NCBI RefSeq assembly: GCF_030580915.1
Contig: NZ_JAUQTA010000001.1
Span: 1,736,001 to 1,800,000, forward strand
Source: Nocardioides jiangxiensis
Lineage (GTDB): Bacteria > Actinomycetota > Actinomycetes > Propionibacteriales > Nocardioidaceae
Reading direction: 5' to 3'
Length of the DNA: 64,000 bases
Each line of letters starts with the position of its first letter. Position 1 is the stretch's first letter. Shown here piece after piece: positions 29,098-39,917 of the stretch. Under the pieces are notes generated by a model that was not told the DNA's origin, searched no databases, and saw only the letters and a program-made list of their open reading frames with translations. Position numbers and translations under genes: made by a program.

Positions 29098-29149
29098 GGG
29101 AGTCTGGCCGGGGAGTCAGGCCGGGGAGTCAGGCCGGGGAGTCAGGCCG
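29098..29149. repeat. Four 13-bp tandem repeats at the 3' end of the CarH-like gene
   Basis: The unit GGGAGTCAGGCCG occurs at 29111, 29124 and 29137, and once as GGGAGTCTGGCCG at 29098. The stop codon of the regulator (29142-29144) falls inside the last copy, so the array overlaps the end of the gene. Confidence 0.8.
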
Positions 29150-30038
29150 GGCGGCCTGGCGCGAGGCGCCCGGCGAGCAGGGCGGCGCCGGGGCCCACGT
29201 GGTGCCCGAGCTTGAGGCACCAGGGCGGCGCCGACTCCTGCGCCGAGCCGCCGACGGCCACGAGCAGGTCCGGTCTGGCCGCGCGCAGGGCCTCTGCGAC
29301 CTCCCGCACGGAGCCGCCGTCGGCCTCGGTGGGTGCAGCCAGGACCGCGCAGGCCACCTCGCCGAACGCGCCGGTGGTGGCCGCGGTGATCCACTCCGCG
29401 GTGGGCACATCGGCGCCGAGGTAGACCGTCGAGAGACCGGCCCGCCGGGCCGCCGTGGCGAAGGCGAGGAGCCCGAGCTCGTGCCGGGCGCCCGGAGGCA
29501 GGCCGATCAGGAGCCGGGGGCCCATCGGGTTGTCTCCCGCGGCGTCGTAGGCGGCTGCGAGGCGACGGGTGATCGCGTGGGCGACCATGTGCTCGCCGGC
29601 GACGCTGACGTGCTGGGCCTTCCAGGCCGCCCCCAGGGCATGGAGCGCCGGCAGCAGCCACCGGTCCGCGACGGCCTCGAAGGACGCCGAGCCGAACTGC
29701 CGGTCGAGGAGTGCGCCGAGTGCCGGGGCGTCCAGCGCTGCAGCGGTGCGGATCAGCGCCGCCGTGGCGTCGGTGTCGGCGCCGTCGGGCTCGACGGTAG
29801 TCGGGCGAGGGGCCTCGGACGCCATCCGGCGACGCATCTCGTCGGCGGCGGCCTGCGCCGGCCACCCGTCGTCGATGAGCGCGCGCATCAGGCCCAGCGC
29901 ATGCAGGTCGCGTCCGTCGTACAGGCGGTAGCCGGACTCCGTGCGCTGCGTGGCGCCGACCCCGTAGCGCCGCTCCCATGCGCGCAGGGTCGACTCGCTG
30001 ACGCCGAGCTGCTCTGCAGCGCGCTTGATCGTGTACAC
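29142..30038 (-). CDS. CarH/LitR-type MerR regulator with a cobalamin-binding photoreceptor domain
   Basis: A 298-residue regulator. The MerR helix-turn-helix is residues 1-70 (YTIKRAAEQLGVSESTLRAWERRYG). The B12 cap helices hold W139-x9-E149-H150 (AAWKAQHVSVAGEH), the Wx9EH signature of adenosylcobalamin photoreceptors. The Rossmann part has PPGARHELGLLAF with H186 as the likely cobalt ligand, then VYLGADVP. Known CarH proteins repress in the dark as B12-bound tetramers and fall apart in light. The residue after the Trp is Lys140, not the His that ligates cobalt after photolysis in Thermus CarH. It faces the operon at 30266 across 11-bp repeats. Confidence 0.87.
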   Translation of the reverse strand: MYTIKRAAEQLGVSESTLRAWERRYGVGATQRTESGYRLYDGRDLHALGLMRALIDDGWPAQAAADEMRRRMASEAPRPTTVEPDGADTDATAALIRTAAALDAPALGALLDRQFGSASFEAVADRWLLPALHALGAAWKAQHVSVAGEHMVAHAITRRLAAAYDAAGDNPMGPRLLIGLPPGARHELGLLAFATAARRAGLSTVYLGADVPTAEWITAATTGAFGEVACAVLAAPTEADGGSVREVAEALRAARPDLLVAVGGSAQESAPPWCLKLGHHVGPGAALLAGRLAPGRPA

Positions 30039-30104: not shown

Positions 30105-30115
30105 AACCTTGGACA
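30105..30115. promoter_or_regulatory. Distal 11-bp CarH-type operator repeat
   Basis: AACCTTGGACA, identical to the copy at 30204-30214 and in the same orientation, 67 bp upstream of the regulator start. It could serve autoregulation of the CarH-like gene. Confidence 0.55.
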
Positions 30116-30192
30116 ACTCTTCCGCAAAGCATACGTGGCGGTGGCCTTTCCCCGCGTGGTCGGCGGAGATGTGCACCGAACTAGTCCGTGCA

Positions 30193-30214
30193 AACCTTTG
30201 ACAAACCTTGGACA
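30193..30214. promoter_or_regulatory. Tandem 11-bp operator repeats over the divergent promoter
   Basis: AACCTTTGACA and AACCTTGGACA are directly adjacent, differ at one base and cover the -35 box and half the spacer of the promoter of the 30266 operon. Tandem 11-bp direct repeats overlapping a -35 are the published layout of CarH operators. Confidence 0.7.
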
Positions 30215-30226
30215 TACTCGTACGTT
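30198..30226 (+). promoter_or_regulatory. Consensus promoter of the putative light-regulated operon
   Basis: TTGACA (30198-30203), 17 bp, TACGTT (30221-30226). It is the best -35/-10 pair I see in the window, which suits control by repression. Predicted transcripts would have a leader of about 30 nt with AAGGAG before ATG 30266. Confidence 0.7.
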
Positions 30227-30265
30227 CAACGGAAAGGACCCGTGCACGTCAACCAAGGAGTCGAG

Positions 30266-30505
30266 ATGAACCTGAGCAGCCAGCGCCCCGACAACGGGAG
30301 CGACGAGATCGTCGACTGGACCGACCTCGGCATGCGGATGTGGAACTTCCTCACCGGTCGGGAGGCAGCGATCAACTACGAGTTCCACGACATGGTCGTC
30401 GAGGTGCCGCGCGACACCGGCAGCAACGCGCCCCGGGCCACCTGGCGCGTCGACGGTCTGCTCCGGGTCACCACCGACGACAACGCGACCCCGCGGCCGG
30501 CCTGA
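30266..30505 (+). CDS. Small conserved-looking protein of unknown function, first gene of the CarH-controlled operon
   Basis: A 79-residue acidic protein (MNLSSQRPDNGSDEIVDWTDLGMRMWNFLTGREAAINYEFHDMVVEVPRDTG...). I do not recognise the family. A central amphipathic region (DWTDLGMRMWNFLTGREAAINYEF) precedes a beta-rich segment (MVVEVPRD, ATWRVDGLLRVTT). No signal peptide or membrane helix. The start at 30266 is fixed by AAGGAG 5 nt upstream; the longer open frame begins before the promoter. The next gene starts 1 bp after its stop, so they are cotranscribed. Light control is inferred from the promoter. Confidence 0.7.
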   Translation: MNLSSQRPDNGSDEIVDWTDLGMRMWNFLTGREAAINYEFHDMVVEVPRDTGSNAPRATWRVDGLLRVTTDDNATPRPA

Positions 30506-30506
30506 G

Positions 30507-31367
30507 ATGTCCATGCGTGTCACGGCGGACCTCCGCTTCAGCGTGGGGACGGCCGACGGCCGGACGATCGACGGTCGTGTGCACGGCGACGGGCGCCGGC
30601 TGCAGCTGGAGATGGCCGACCCGGCAGCGTTTGCCGGCTTCGCGGACGCTCCCGGCGTGGCCGGCATCGCGGAGGCCCTGGCCGTCCGTGGCCTGGTGCT
30701 CGACGTGATGGAAGGCCCGGGCCGGCGACTGCTCTCGCTCGGTGCGGTCCATGCGCCGTGGTGGCAGCGCAGGATCACCGGCTCGAGGCGGATCCGCCTC
30801 GCCGGATGGCGGGCACTGCGTGCTCCCAGCCGTGCCCGGCTGCGGGAGCTGGCCGGCCGCGTCCAGGGCAAGGAGCCGACGGGTGGTCTGCTACCGCCTG
30901 CCACGCCGTTCCCGCTGGCGCCGACGTTCGCCCGGCGGGTCCGCGTTCGTCCGACGGGCACCAACGACCCCGCCCGTGGCGGGCAGCCGCGGCTGGTGCT
31001 GGTCCGTGACTCCTACCGGCCCGGGGAGCGCCAGCCCATCTTCTGGCTGGGTGAGGGGACCTGCCGCATCGGCAGCGGCGCTGACTGCGACATCCGGCTG
31101 CCCGGCCTGCGTGAGCTGCACGCCGAGGTCGTCCACGACGCCAACGACGAGTTCGTCGTGATGGCCCATGCTCCGGCCACCTACGTCCATGGTGCGCCGG
31201 CGATCCGTGCGGTCCTGCGGACCGGAGCCCGGCTCCGGGTAGGCGAGTGGACGCTGGCCTTCGCACGCGCCGAGTACGCCGACCACGGCCGTCCGTTCGC
31301 CGGCCGGGTCGGCGGGGAGCTCGGCCACCAGCGTCCGCAGCCGAGTCAGACGCGGTGGTCGGGATGA
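30507..31367 (+). CDS. Protein with a C-terminal degenerate FHA domain
   Basis: A 286-residue protein. Residues 1-150 are unassigned (MSMRVTADLRFSVGTADGRTIDGRV...) with a beta-rich start and a very basic middle. About residues 185-275 resemble an FHA domain: GTCRIGSGADCDIRLPGLRELHAEVV, then LRTGARLRVGEWTLAF. The usual GR of the phosphothreonine pocket is GS and the NG turn is absent, so phosphopeptide binding is doubtful. Second gene of the operon; an alternative ATG at 30513 is possible. Its stop overlaps the next start (ATGA). Function unknown. Confidence 0.72.
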   Translation: MSMRVTADLRFSVGTADGRTIDGRVHGDGRRLQLEMADPAAFAGFADAPGVAGIAEALAVRGLVLDVMEGPGRRLLSLGAVHAPWWQRRITGSRRIRLAGWRALRAPSRARLRELAGRVQGKEPTGGLLPPATPFPLAPTFARRVRVRPTGTNDPARGGQPRLVLVRDSYRPGERQPIFWLGEGTCRIGSGADCDIRLPGLRELHAEVVHDANDEFVVMAHAPATYVHGAPAIRAVLRTGARLRVGEWTLAFARAEYADHGRPFAGRVGGELGHQRPQPSQTRWSG

Positions 31368-31666
31368 GCGCCGCGCGGCGGCCGGGGGCTTGTCCCCTGG
31401 CCGCGTGCGGTGGGCTCCTGCTGCAGTCAGGCCGCGGCGACCCTGACGCCTTCGCACAGCTGTACGACGTCACGTGCGGCCCGGTGTACCGGCTCGCCGT
31501 GAGCCTCGTCGGCGAGGCGAACGCCGACGAGGTGCTCGTGCAGGCCTACGTGGAGGCCTGGCGCACCGCGCCCCGGTTCGACCCGGCGCAGGGCACTGCT
31601 CTCGCGTGGCTCCTGCGCCATGTGCAGCGGGTCGCCGGTGAGCAGTTCTCGGGGGAGGTCGCGTGA
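31364..31666 (+). CDS. Orphan sigma-70 region 2 protein lacking region 4
   Basis: A 100-residue protein. DPDAFAQLYDVTCGPVYRLAVSLVGEANADEVLVQAYVEAWRTAPRFDPAQGTALAWLLRHVQRVAGE matches regions 2.1-2.4 of ECF sigma factors. The protein stops there; the DNA beyond is a tRNA gene on the other strand, so no region 4 remains in any frame. It could be an anti-sigma-like decoy, a partner of another sigma factor, or a truncated relict. In Streptomyces, LitR controls a neighbouring ECF sigma factor (LitS), which makes this position notable. It is coupled to the FHA gene by ATGA. Confidence 0.72.
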   Translation: MSAARRPGACPLAACGGLLLQSGRGDPDAFAQLYDVTCGPVYRLAVSLVGEANADEVLVQAYVEAWRTAPRFDPAQGTALAWLLRHVQRVAGEQFSGEVA

Positions 31667-31680
31667 CCTGCGGTGGAGCG

Positions 31681-31756
31681 TGGAGCGGATGACGAGACTC
31701 GAACTCGCGACATCGACCTTGGGAAGGTCGCGCTCTACCAACTGAGCTACATCCGC
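31681..31756 (-). tRNA. tRNA-Gly (anticodon CCC)
   Basis: A 76-nt cloverleaf on the minus strand: acceptor GCGGATG/CATCCGC, D arm GCTC...GAGC, anticodon stem CGACC/GGTCG around loop TTCCCAA, and T arm GCGAG-TTCGACT-CTCGT. CCA is encoded. Discriminator base U fits glycine. Confidence 0.95.
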
Positions 31757-36686: not shown

Positions 36687-36728
36687 TGCCGTGTCTTGAG
36701 GGCGGGCGCTGACGAAATTACCCAACAT

Positions 36729-36756
36729 TTGACTTTCGTTATTCAATCCATACAAG
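36729..36756 (+). promoter_or_regulatory. Promoter of the siderophore uptake operon
   Basis: TTGACT (36729-36734), 16 bp, TACAAG (36751-36756). The -10 lies under the iron box, so a bound repressor would block RNA polymerase. The flank is AT-rich against the rest of the window. Confidence 0.5.
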
Positions 36757-36771
36757 GTAAGCCTTACCTAA
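36753..36771. promoter_or_regulatory. DtxR/IdeR iron box
   Basis: AGGTAAG-C-CTTACCT is a perfect palindrome and fits the DtxR/IdeR operator consensus (TTAGGTTAGSCTAACCTAA) at most positions. It lies 27 bp before the start of the binding-protein gene, as expected for iron-repressed siderophore uptake. Confidence 0.88.
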
Positions 36772-36797
36772 GTTTGATCGACGGAAGTGATCTCCAG

Positions 36798-37839
36798 ATG
36801 AAGCTCCGCATGACCGCCCCCGCCACGGCGGCCGCTCTCCTCACCGGCCTGACCGCGTGTGGTGCCTCGGGCGCCGACACCGGCCACACCACCGGCACTG
36901 GACCCTCGGCTGCGGCTGCCGGTGCGTTCCCGGTGACCATCGAGCACGCCTACGGCGAGACGGTCATCGACGAGAAGCCGGTCCGGGTCGCGACGGTCGC
37001 CTGGGCGAACCAGGAAGTCCCGCTCGCCCTCGGCCTCGTGCCGGTCGGCATGAGCAAGGCGGCCTGGGGCGACGACGACGGCGACGGCGTGCTCCCGTGG
37101 GTCGAGGAGCGGCTCACCGAGCTGCACGCGGAGACGCCGGTCCTCTTCGACGAGTCCGAGGGCATCGACTACGAGGCCGTCGCCGACACCGAGCCCGACG
37201 TCATCCTCGCGTCGTACTCCGGCCTGACGAAGGAGGAGTACGACAGGCTCTCCCGGATCGCCCCGGTCGTCGCCGAGCCCGGCGTGCCCTGGGGCACGTC
37301 GATGGATGACATGGTCCGCATGAACAGCACCGCCCTCGGCCTCGCGAGGGAGGGCGTCGCGCTCGTCGCGCGGCTCGACTCCGAGATCCGGGAGTCGCTC
37401 GCCGAGCACCCGTCGCTCGAGGGCAGGAAGGTCCTCTTCAGCTACGTCGACCCGACCGACATGAGCAAGGTCGGCTTCTACACGACCCACGACACGCGTC
37501 CGGGGTTCCTCGCCGGTCTCGGCCTCCCGCAGCCCTCCGTCGTGACGGCCACCTCGGCGACGTCGACGAGCTTCTACGAGACGGTCAGCTCCGAGCAGGC
37601 GGCGAAGTTCGCGGACGTCGACGTCGTCGTCGCCTACGGCAACCCTGACGGCTCCACCCTCGAGGCGCTCCAGGCCGACCCGCTGATCGGCAAGATCCCG
37701 GCGATCCGCAAGGGCGCGGTCGCGGTCCTGCCGGACGCGACCCCGCTCGCCGCCTCCGCCAACCCGTCGCCCCTCTCGATCGGCTGGGGCATCGACCGGT
37801 ACTTCGACCTCCTCGCCTCCGCAGCCGACAAGGCCTTAG
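36798..37839 (+). CDS. Ferric-siderophore binding lipoprotein; stop codon lost by a one-base shift
   Basis: A periplasmic-binding (FecB/FepB-like) lipoprotein of about 346 residues. Lipobox LTAC, then HAYGETVIDEKPVRVATVAWANQEVPLALGLVPVG, an EPDVILASYSGLTKEEYDRLSRIAPVV clamp segment, and the usual end IGWGIDRYFDLLASAADKA. A stop is expected there: the DNA reads GCCTTAGATG, where GCC-TAG-ATG would be natural. The extra T removes the stop and the frame stays open to 39917, through permease 1 out of frame and permease 2 in frame. The true product end is uncertain. It captures ferric siderophores for the transporter that follows. Confidence 0.8.
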
Positions 37840-38889
37840 ATGTCCCTGCAGCTCACCCGACCCGGTCCGTCGCTCGCCGCGGTCGCCACACCGCGGCGAG
37901 CGACGGGTCGTCCTGCCTGGCTCCTCGCGGCGCTGCTGGTCGCGGGAGCTGCGTCGGTCGCGTCGGTCGCCCTCGGCCTCGCCGCCGTCAGCTGGTCCGA
38001 CATCGGCCGGGGCCTGACCGGAGACGACGCCACGCTCGGCGCAGCGGCGGTCGCGCGGCGCGTGCCCCGCACAGCCCTCGCCCTCCTGGTCGGTGGCGCG
38101 CTCGGCCTGGCCGGCGCCGTCATGCAAGGGGTCACGCGGAACCCGCTGGCCGATCCGGCCATGCTCGGCATCACGAACGGCGCATCCCTGGCCGTCGTCT
38201 CCGGCATCGCGTTCTTCGGGCTCTCCTCGCCCACCGCCTACATCGCGGTCGCGATCACCGGAGCCGCGGTGACCGCAGTCGTGGTCTGGACGATCGGGTC
38301 GCTCGGTCGCGGCGGCGCCACACCGCTCAAGCTCGCGCTCGCCGGAGCCGCGACAGCGGCCGCCCTCTCCTCGCTCGTCAGCGCCGTGCTGCTGCCCCGC
38401 CTCGACGTGATGAACACCTTCCGCTTCTGGCAGGTCGGCGGCGTCGGCGGTGCCACCTGGGACCGCATCGGGCTGGTGCTGCCGTTCCTTCTCGCCGGAA
38501 CCGGCGGCTGCCTGGCGATGGCCCGCGGGCTGAACGCTCTCGCGCTCGGCGACGACGTGGCGGCCGGTCTGGGGCTGCACGTCGGCCGGACCCGTCTGGC
38601 CGCGGGCGCCGCGGCTGTCGTCCTGTGTGGCGCTGCCACCGCGATCGCCGGGCCGATCGCCTTCGTGGGCCTCGTCGTCCCCCACCTCTGCCGTCTCCTC
38701 GTCGGTGTCGACCACCGCTGGGTGCTGCCCCTGGCCATCGTGGTGGGCGGCGCGCTGCTCACCAGCGCCGACGTGGCCGGACGACTGGTGGCCCGGCCCG
38801 ACGAGGTCGAGGTCGGCATCGTCACGGCGCTGATCGGTGCGCCCGTGCTGATCGGCATCGTTCGCCGTACCCGGATGCGTGCGCTGTGA
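37840..38889 (+). CDS. FecCD-type siderophore ABC transporter permease 1
   Basis: A 349-residue permease with about nine to ten membrane helices. RRVPRTALALLVGGALGLAGAVMQGVTRNPLADPAMLGITNGASLAVV is the family block near residues 74-120, and IAGPIAFVGLVVPHLCRLLVGVDHRWVLP near 270 is the second. It pairs with the next permease (overlap GTGA) to form the heterodimeric channel for ferric siderophores. Its ATG follows at once after the expected end of the binding protein. Confidence 0.92.
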   Translation: MSLQLTRPGPSLAAVATPRRATGRPAWLLAALLVAGAASVASVALGLAAVSWSDIGRGLTGDDATLGAAAVARRVPRTALALLVGGALGLAGAVMQGVTRNPLADPAMLGITNGASLAVVSGIAFFGLSSPTAYIAVAITGAAVTAVVVWTIGSLGRGGATPLKLALAGAATAAALSSLVSAVLLPRLDVMNTFRFWQVGGVGGATWDRIGLVLPFLLAGTGGCLAMARGLNALALGDDVAAGLGLHVGRTRLAAGAAAVVLCGAATAIAGPIAFVGLVVPHLCRLLVGVDHRWVLPLAIVVGGALLTSADVAGRLVARPDEVEVGIVTALIGAPVLIGIVRRTRMRAL

Positions 38890-39917
38890 GCACCACGGTC
38901 AGCGTGCTGGGCGCCGGTCGTCGGCGTCGCGCGCAGCGGCGTACGACGGTGGTGGCGGTGCTCGCCGTGCTGGTGGTCGCCGCGTGGTTCACCAGCCTGA
39001 TGGTGGGGCACCGCTTCTACGGACCCGGTGACGTCCTCCAGGTCCTGCTCGGCCAGCCGGTGCCCGGCGCCTCGTTTACCGTCGGAGACCTCCGGTTGCC
39101 GCGCGCCTTCCTCGCGGCGCTCACGGGAGCGGCGTTCGGGCTGGGCGGGGCGACCTTCCAGACGATGCTGCGCAACCCCCTCGCGTCGCCGGACGTCATC
39201 GGCATCAGCACGGGCGCGTCCGCGGCGGGTGTCTTCGCCATCGTGGTGCTGGGACTCAGCGGGCCGGCGGTCTCGGGCATCGCCGTGGTCGCGGCGCTCG
39301 GTGTCGCCCTCGGCATCCACGTGCTCGCCTGGCAGGACGGCGTCGTCGGCTCGCGGCTCGTCCTCATCGGCATCGGTGTCGCGGCGATGCTGCACGCCGT
39401 CGTCTCGTGGGTGCTCATCCAGGCCTCGGAGTGGGACGTGCAGGCGGCGATGCGCTGGTTCACGGGCAACCTCAACAGCGCGGACTGGCCCCTCGTGGTC
39501 CCGCTCGCGGTGGTCATGGTCGTGGTCGTCCCGGTGCTCCTGGCGCAGGCTGCCTCGCTCGACCTGCTGCACCTCGGCGACGACACAGCCGCCGCCCTCG
39601 GCGTGCCCGTGGAGCGGACCCGGCTGGTCTGCGTGATCGCGGCGGCCGTCCTAGTCGCCTGCGCCACGGCCGCCGCCGGTCCCATCGCCTTCGTGGCGTT
39701 CCTGGCCGGACCGATCGCCGCCCGGCTGGTGGGTGGGGCGCGGTCCCTGCTCGTTCCCGCTGCGCTGGTCGGCGCGCTGATCGTGCTCCTCGGTGACCAG
39801 GCGGGGCAGTGGGCGCTCGGTGTCCGCTACCCGGTGGGTGTCGTCACCGGGGCGCTGGGAGCGCCGTACCTCGTCCACCTGCTCATCCGCACCAACCGGA
39901 CGGGAGGCGGCCTGTGA
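38886..39917 (+). CDS. FecCD-type siderophore ABC transporter permease 2
   Basis: A 343-residue permease starting at GTG. LRLPRAFLAALTGAAFGLGGATFQTMLRNPLASPDVIGISTGASAAGVF and AGPIAFVAFLAGPIAARLVGG are the family blocks; about nine to ten helices. The frame is the same as that of the binding-protein reading frame, so sequence-based gene callers may fuse the two. GTGA overlaps on both sides show it is translated from its own start, coupled to its neighbours. Confidence 0.92.
   Translation: MSTTVSVLGAGRRRRAQRRTTVVAVLAVLVVAAWFTSLMVGHRFYGPGDVLQVLLGQPVPGASFTVGDLRLPRAFLAALTGAAFGLGGATFQTMLRNPLASPDVIGISTGASAAGVFAIVVLGLSGPAVSGIAVVAALGVALGIHVLAWQDGVVGSRLVLIGIGVAAMLHAVVSWVLIQASEWDVQAAMRWFTGNLNSADWPLVVPLAVVMVVVVPVLLAQAASLDLLHLGDDTAAALGVPVERTRLVCVIAAAVLVACATAAAGPIAFVAFLAGPIAARLVGGARSLLVPAALVGALIVLLGDQAGQWALGVRYPVGVVTGALGAPYLVHLLIRTNRTGGGL

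Follow-up and report, generated by a model that had tools for sequence, protein, structure and literature searches.

A family of B12-binding MerR proteins, the CarH/LitR regulators, is known for light-controlled repression, and a gene for such a protein lies in the 64-kb window (the whole stretch of DNA analysed), transcribed divergently from a three-gene operon (30266-31666) that encodes a 79-aa protein, a protein with an FHA domain, and a sigma-region-2 protein. The 227-bp intergenic region between them carries repeated 11-mers. We asked whether these repeats constitute an operator of the CarH type, whether the operon is likely to be under the control of light, and how this regulator relates to those found at the same operon in other genomes.

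Tandem 11-bp repeats overlap the operon promoter

The initial annotation had placed two contiguous 11-mers at 30193-30214 and a further copy from 30105, and all three were found at these positions: AACCTTTGACA (30193-30203) abuts AACCTTGGACA (30204-30214), and the third copy, AACCTTGGACA, occupies 30105-30115. Exact AACCTTNGACA matched three times in the 3,009,457-base genome, each time inside the 227-bp intergenic region, and its reversed control gave no match in the whole genome. At two mismatches, a single 11-mer is not distinctive in the window (20 matches vs 12.65 expected, a count equalled in 4 of 100 shuffles), and the exact single 11-mer matched 23 times in the genomes of 15 relatives, as compared with 6 times for the reversed control. 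Since the single 11-mer is ordinary in the window and unspecific in relatives, the evidential weight rests on the tandem. Besides the pair at 30193-30214, the 64-kb window contains no tandem of 11-mers with at least 10/11 identity, and shuffling the single bases of the intergenic region 20,000 times produced such a tandem 21 times. These shuffles, like those used below for the spacing of TnnACA motifs, preserve base composition and not dinucleotide composition.

The CarH repeat has been described as an 11-bp nnnnTnnACAn element, with the -35 hexamer lying within one repeat; the full operators contain three repeats in Thermus and four in Bacillus, and operators with one or two full repeats and degenerate flanks are still bound (PMC9304148). 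A shift of one base places the window 11-mers in this published register, giving two full direct repeats (DR1 and DR2, Table 1) with the -35 within DR1, in agreement with the CarH-style operator that had been annotated. The promoter thus resembles those of Thermus and Bacillus CarH in its tandem 11-bp TnnACA repeats and in having the -35 inside a repeat, but it has two full repeats, the third being degenerate. The assignment of 30216-30226 as this third repeat is putative; its counterparts are AGATCGTACGT in N. phosphati, in register and degenerate, and AGATTGTACGT in the relative G011. At the DR2 position, N. phosphati has ACCTTGTACGT, a repeat ending in ACG.

The description of the promoter as a consensus one was upheld in part. 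TTGACA-17-TACGTT is present and its -35 scores 6/6, but its -10 is weak (3/6 vs TATAAT), and a stricter scan called no promoter at 30198-30226. In N. phosphati and at several orthologue loci, the corresponding promoter reads TTGACA-18-TAC(G/A)TT. The tandem site that overlaps the operon -35, 51-72 bp ahead of the operon start codon, is the better of two. In the second, near merR, the partner repeat at 30117-30127 is degenerate in the window and a full repeat, CTCCTCGACAG, in N. phosphati; autoregulation through this site is likely. A genome scan at three mismatches found the merR-proximal pair in the window genome and in N. phosphati alike. As three mismatches is the control level (one control match per genome in both), the pair is supported by its recurrence at the same place in N. 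phosphati. In the window genome, the scan returned the two intergenic sites and one other match, against one control match. The convincing sites seem to be the one at the operon promoter and the one near merR, which would make this intergenic region the single target.

Table 1. Features of the regulator/operon locus in the window.
Feature	Position	Strand	Description
CarH-like MerR regulator with B12-binding domains, 298 aa (merR)	29142..30038	-	Pfam MerR_1, B12-binding_2, B12-binding
merR-proximal site	30106..30127	+	direct repeat ACCTTGGACAA, then degenerate CTCTTCCGCAA
DR1, ACCTTTGACAA	30194..30204	+	nnnnTnnACAn register; holds -35 TTGACA
DR2, ACCTTGGACAT	30205..30215	+	adjoins DR1; between -35 and -10
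Putative degenerate third repeat	30216..30226	+	over the -10; one base out of register (short)
Promoter TTGACA-17-TACGTT	30198..30226	+	-35 at 30198-30203, 17 bp, -10 at 30221-30226
Ribosome-binding site AAGGAG	30255..30260	+	from the sequence
79-aa conserved protein	30266..30505	+	dN/dS estimate 0.04 vs N. phosphati
286-aa protein, N-terminal region and FHA domain (about 173-250)	30507..31367	+	profile match to FHA structures
100-aa sigma-70 region-2-only protein, SigK-like	31364..31666	+	start overlaps FHA stop (ATGA)

The regulator is CarH-like

The divergent gene had been annotated as encoding a MerR-B12 protein with W139-x9-E149-H150 and H186, and both its Pfam domains and its alignment with CarH, its closest relative in the PDB, agree with this description. 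The four residues align to W131, E141, H142, and H177 of CarH and are invariant in all 34 aligned clade members, the window protein counted. In common with CarH of Thermus thermophilus and Bacillus megaterium, and in the domain order of the CarH/LitR B12-MerR family, the protein has a MerR HTH, a helical bundle, and a B12-binding domain, together with the Wx9EH motif and the lower axial His of that family. The published light signature consists of the motifs GxxW, EH, GxxH, and GxxxP (PMC11796333). All four are present in the window protein; the strict signature was found in 28 of the 34 clade members and R185 in 27.

In two respects the protein differs from CarH. His132 of Thermus CarH becomes a cobalt ligand after light, and the H132A variant of TtCarH is largely tetrameric even in light (PMC10442372). 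The window protein has K140 at this position, and so lacks the light-state ligand of the TtCarH type; His is absent from it in all 34 aligned clade members. Light-responsive B12 proteins carrying Arg, Gln, or Tyr at the His132 position are known. The score against the NCBIfam CarH equivalog NF052513 was 124.8 bits, far under the cut-off of 400. Given this score and the Lys in place of His132, we call the protein CarH-like rather than a CarH equivalog.

The window genome encodes a cobalamin adenosyltransferase, and the dN/dS estimate for merR between the window and N. phosphati is 0.16. A search for the DICT domain (PF10069) gave no match in the window genome or in N. phosphati, so that a MerR-DICT identity for the protein was rejected.

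Operator and regulator occur together across relatives

Conserved 11-mers were sought upstream of other orthologues of the regulator, and they were found there as 11-bp-spaced TnnACA repeats. TnnACA pairs were counted over 600 bp of upstream sequence in a set of 18 non-redundant orthologues, to which 28 listed loci had been reduced and from which the window and N. phosphati (L051) were excluded. In this set, 18 pairs were spaced at 11 bp (shuffle mean 0.05, maximum 1), and the next-commonest spacings of 21, 22, and 26 bp had 3 pairs each. Counted by locus among the matches listed, an 11-bp pair was present at 19 of the 28 (shuffle maximum 2/28), and the strict pair was missing from 9, the carotenoid-facing locus included.

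At one mismatch or fewer, the tandem pattern had 43 sites in 34 of 195 genomes, and the reversed control had 1 site. The regulator was present in 33 of these 34 genomes, as compared with 82 of the 195 overall (Fisher p 9e-14); the exception is G076. Measured to the regulator positions among the matches listed, 28 of the 43 sites are no more than 2 kb from a regulator and 15 are farther away. Some of the distant sites adjoin or fall within genes that have no obvious connection to light, and some are beside genes for sigma factors or, judged by eye, fasciclin-like proteins; the 15 may be regulon members or chance occurrences. Three tandem CarH-type sites with no B12-MerR gene near them (L113 in G007, L116 in G117, and L114 in G026) adjoin, by eye, an ECF-sigma-like/lipoprotein pair or a secreted fasciclin-like gene and are possible extra regulon members.

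N. phosphati is the sole relative found with the identical divergent regulator/operon pair. Its intergenic region is 269 bp long as against 227 bp in the window, and much of the sequence has diverged while the repeats are kept. The initial annotation had named absence of the 11-mers from relatives with the gene pair as evidence against its reading; no such absence was seen, N. phosphati being the one relative of this kind. In the distant genome G160, from another family of the order, a weak B12-MerR match lies downstream of 79-aa and FHA-like genes on the same strand (L026), possibly a second, independent association of a B12-MerR with the operon; the 3.2-kb locus contains no 11-bp-spaced TnnACA pair.

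Some orthologous regulators face light-related genes

Gene contexts were established with an in-house gene finder and by similarity, with Pfam confirmation for the tested genes only. The orthologue in G023 faces a polyprenyl synthase, a phytoene synthase, and a phytoene-desaturase-like gene; that in G116 faces a photolyase; and those in G010, G011, and G054 face a cluster of FAD oxidase, DUF1365, CFA synthase, and photolyase genes. Of the 43 tandem sites, the loci of 30 were examined, and at 12 of these a homologue of the FAD oxidase adjoins the regulator; several orthologue contexts hold no evident light gene. Between the B12-MerR orthologue and the carotenoid-type cluster of G023 (L137, 7390-7540), there are four contiguous 11-bp repeats, one of which has a strict TnnACA, the rest ending in TCA or ACG.

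In Pseudomonas, the neighbours of LitR include photolyase, FAD oxidoreductase, and furan-fatty-acid genes, and the class II LitR site is TGTACA-N12-TGTACA, with repression relieved by a LOV partner (PMC9758184). Orthologues in Nocardioides and other families of its order face genes similar to those of the Pseudomonas class II clusters, with tandem repeats, whereas the window regulator faces a different operon.

The claim that the target in the window is neither a carotenoid nor a photolyase gene was sustained at genome level: in the window genome (99.45% completeness), neither phytoene synthase (PF00494) nor photolyase (PF00875) had a match, so that a hidden copy of either gene elsewhere in this genome was rejected. 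In this the window regulator differs from Thermus and Bacillus CarH, its target not being carotenoid synthesis. N. phosphati (G104) does encode a photolyase, and the 19 kb around that gene contain no tandem site under a loose pattern.

The predicted target operon

The first gene of the operon is common: the 79-aa protein has 1310 homologues. None of the 27 sequences of its family that were scanned contained a Pfam family, and a profile search of the family against the PDB gave one match, which was non-significant. In the 286-aa protein, the FHA domain scores under the Pfam cut-off. The dN/dS estimates between the window and N. phosphati are 0.12 for the FHA gene and 0.32 for the third gene. 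The product of the third gene has sigma-70 region 2 alone, where an ECF sigma factor has regions 2 and 4; with region 4 missing, a complete ECF or LitS-like sigma factor was rejected. It is possibly a polymerase-binding fragment or a decoy; a sigma fragment of this kind, without region 4, might associate with core polymerase yet not recognise promoters in the normal way. In LitR/LitS of Streptomyces coelicolor, a B12-MerR is also found beside a sigma-like gene; the window locus shares this arrangement but differs in that its sigma-like protein lacks region 4.

Region-2-only sigma-70 proteins of about 88-116 aa follow the FHA gene separately in five other loci (L031, L032, L033, L048, and L050), and in two (L173 and L174) a second partial match to the FHA protein lies about 1.2-1.3 kb past the small gene. 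Immediately past the operon in the window, a convergent tRNA-Gly (CCC) occupies 31681-31756 on the minus strand. Farther along, a 1073-codon open frame (36696-39917) spans apparent siderophore-transport genes in other frames; it is probably not one gene but an annotation hazard of high-GC DNA.

In Nocardioides sp. JQ2195 (G003) and Nocardioides sp. Root140 (G105, Pfam-confirmed), the operon runs on into a photolyase, and it is therefore not foreign to light genes. Of 73 named loci, only 2 have a photolyase 5 kb or less from the operon, and 19 have homologues of amine-oxidase, CFA, or carotenoid-type genes near it. Judged by this company, the operon may belong to a light or photo-oxidative response. 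In a search of the open-licence literature, no title concerned the 79-aa/FHA/sigma operon, which is weak evidence of its being unstudied.

MerR-DICT regulators occupy the same position in other genomes

The 79-aa gene is faced by a divergent MerR-DICT gene at 33 of its 73 named loci and by a B12-MerR at one, that of N. phosphati. At the remaining 39, which include loci near contig ends, the 1.5 kb upstream contained neither a DICT nor a B12 homologue on the opposite strand; one of these 39 (L153) does have a DICT gene, farther along its cluster. For the genes next to the operon, the DICT assignment was Pfam-confirmed (PF10069) in G105 and G003 and was made by similarity at the other loci. An inverted site, ACCTnAACA..TGTTnAG, lies upstream in 17 of the 33 DICT loci and in none of the 39 others or the 2 B12 loci, whereas the tandem repeat lies upstream of the operon in both B12 loci and in no DICT or other locus. 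The two kinds of locus therefore share the divergent position, the operon, and a half-site with a TnnACA core, and they differ in the sensor domain (B12 instead of DICT) and in the operator (direct repeats instead of an inverted site).

In a midpoint-rooted tree of the FHA protein (58 rows), the window pairs with N. phosphati (100/100); an Aeromicrobium MAG and the Root140 locus, which is under DICT control, join this pair (100/98), within a wider, mostly DICT clade of weaker support. Read from the sequences, a B12-MerR probably replaced a MerR-DICT protein at this operon in the window lineage, and the operator was probably swapped with it; given the midpoint root and a single relative sharing the B12 state, the direction of this exchange is one that we infer.

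Discussion

We consider it probable that the operon at 30266-31666 is under CarH-like light control, a reading drawn from sequence comparison. The steps would be those known for the family, from which binding, oligomeric state, B12 loading, repression, and release by light are all inferred. In the dark, an AdoCbl-bound oligomer of the CarH-like repressor would bind the tandem repeats over the -35 and the spacer (30194-30226) and would also occupy the second tandem site near merR (30106-30127); the bound oligomer would block RNA polymerase at the promoter. Light would break the Co-C bond, the oligomer would leave the DNA, and the genes for the 79-aa, FHA, and sigma-region-2 proteins would then be transcribed.

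The same repressor might instead sense AdoCbl status, binding the repeats when AdoCbl is plentiful and leaving them when it is scarce, with light not the physiological signal. The missing His132 equivalent in 34 of 34 clade members, in view of the impaired light disassembly of TtCarH H132A, and the failure to find a phytoene synthase or photolyase in the window genome would fit such a sensor. Against it, orthologues of the same clade stand at photolyase and carotenoid genes, the light-signature motifs are intact, and an unsystematic inspection by eye recognised no B12-metabolism genes among the neighbours listed; we regard this explanation as unlikely. The protein could also be a classical MerR-type activator that binds and remodels the promoter spacer, as its MerR HTH, the location of DR2 inside the -35/-10 spacer, and the weak -10 might suggest. 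Yet promoters remodelled by MerR proteins have spacers of 19-20 bp, as against 17 bp in the window and 18 bp in relatives, and MerR activator sites are dyads, whereas the window sites are direct repeats with no dyad. Where characterised CarH/LitR proteins have their sites over the -35, they act as repressors. Activation appears quite improbable here.

That the repeats serve merR alone, leaving the operon promoter independent, would account for the tandem site near merR, but the better site overlaps the operon -35 just ahead of the operon genes, and we give this explanation very little credence. As for chance, single 11-mers are indeed common in the window at two mismatches; exact copies are nevertheless confined to this intergenic region of the genome, the tandem is kept in N. 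phosphati, and independent orthologues show the 11-bp peak. A fortuitous repeat was ruled out by the genome-wide counts and the orthologue spacing test, and its probability is negligible. Light control by the CarH-like repressor thus remains the reading that we prefer.

If it is correct, B12 photoreception would extend to an organism in which neither phytoene synthase nor photolyase was found, and the locus would be a natural case of the replacement of a sensor and its operator at a fixed operon. The stimulus of MerR-DICT and the light response of CarH-like proteins without His132 would also become testable questions; on DICT sensing, a search of the open-licence literature returned nothing useful by title. 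More broadly, and only tentatively, a dedicated, single-locus B12 light switch may have displaced MerR-DICT at a widely conserved actinobacterial operon, with an inverted operator giving way to direct repeats that keep the TnnACA core. Should the displacement be real, light or photo-oxidative stress would be the stimulus for MerR-DICT proteins as well, and the operon would serve as a light-response module whose effectors are the FHA protein and the standalone sigma-region-2 protein, the latter possibly engaging RNA polymerase.
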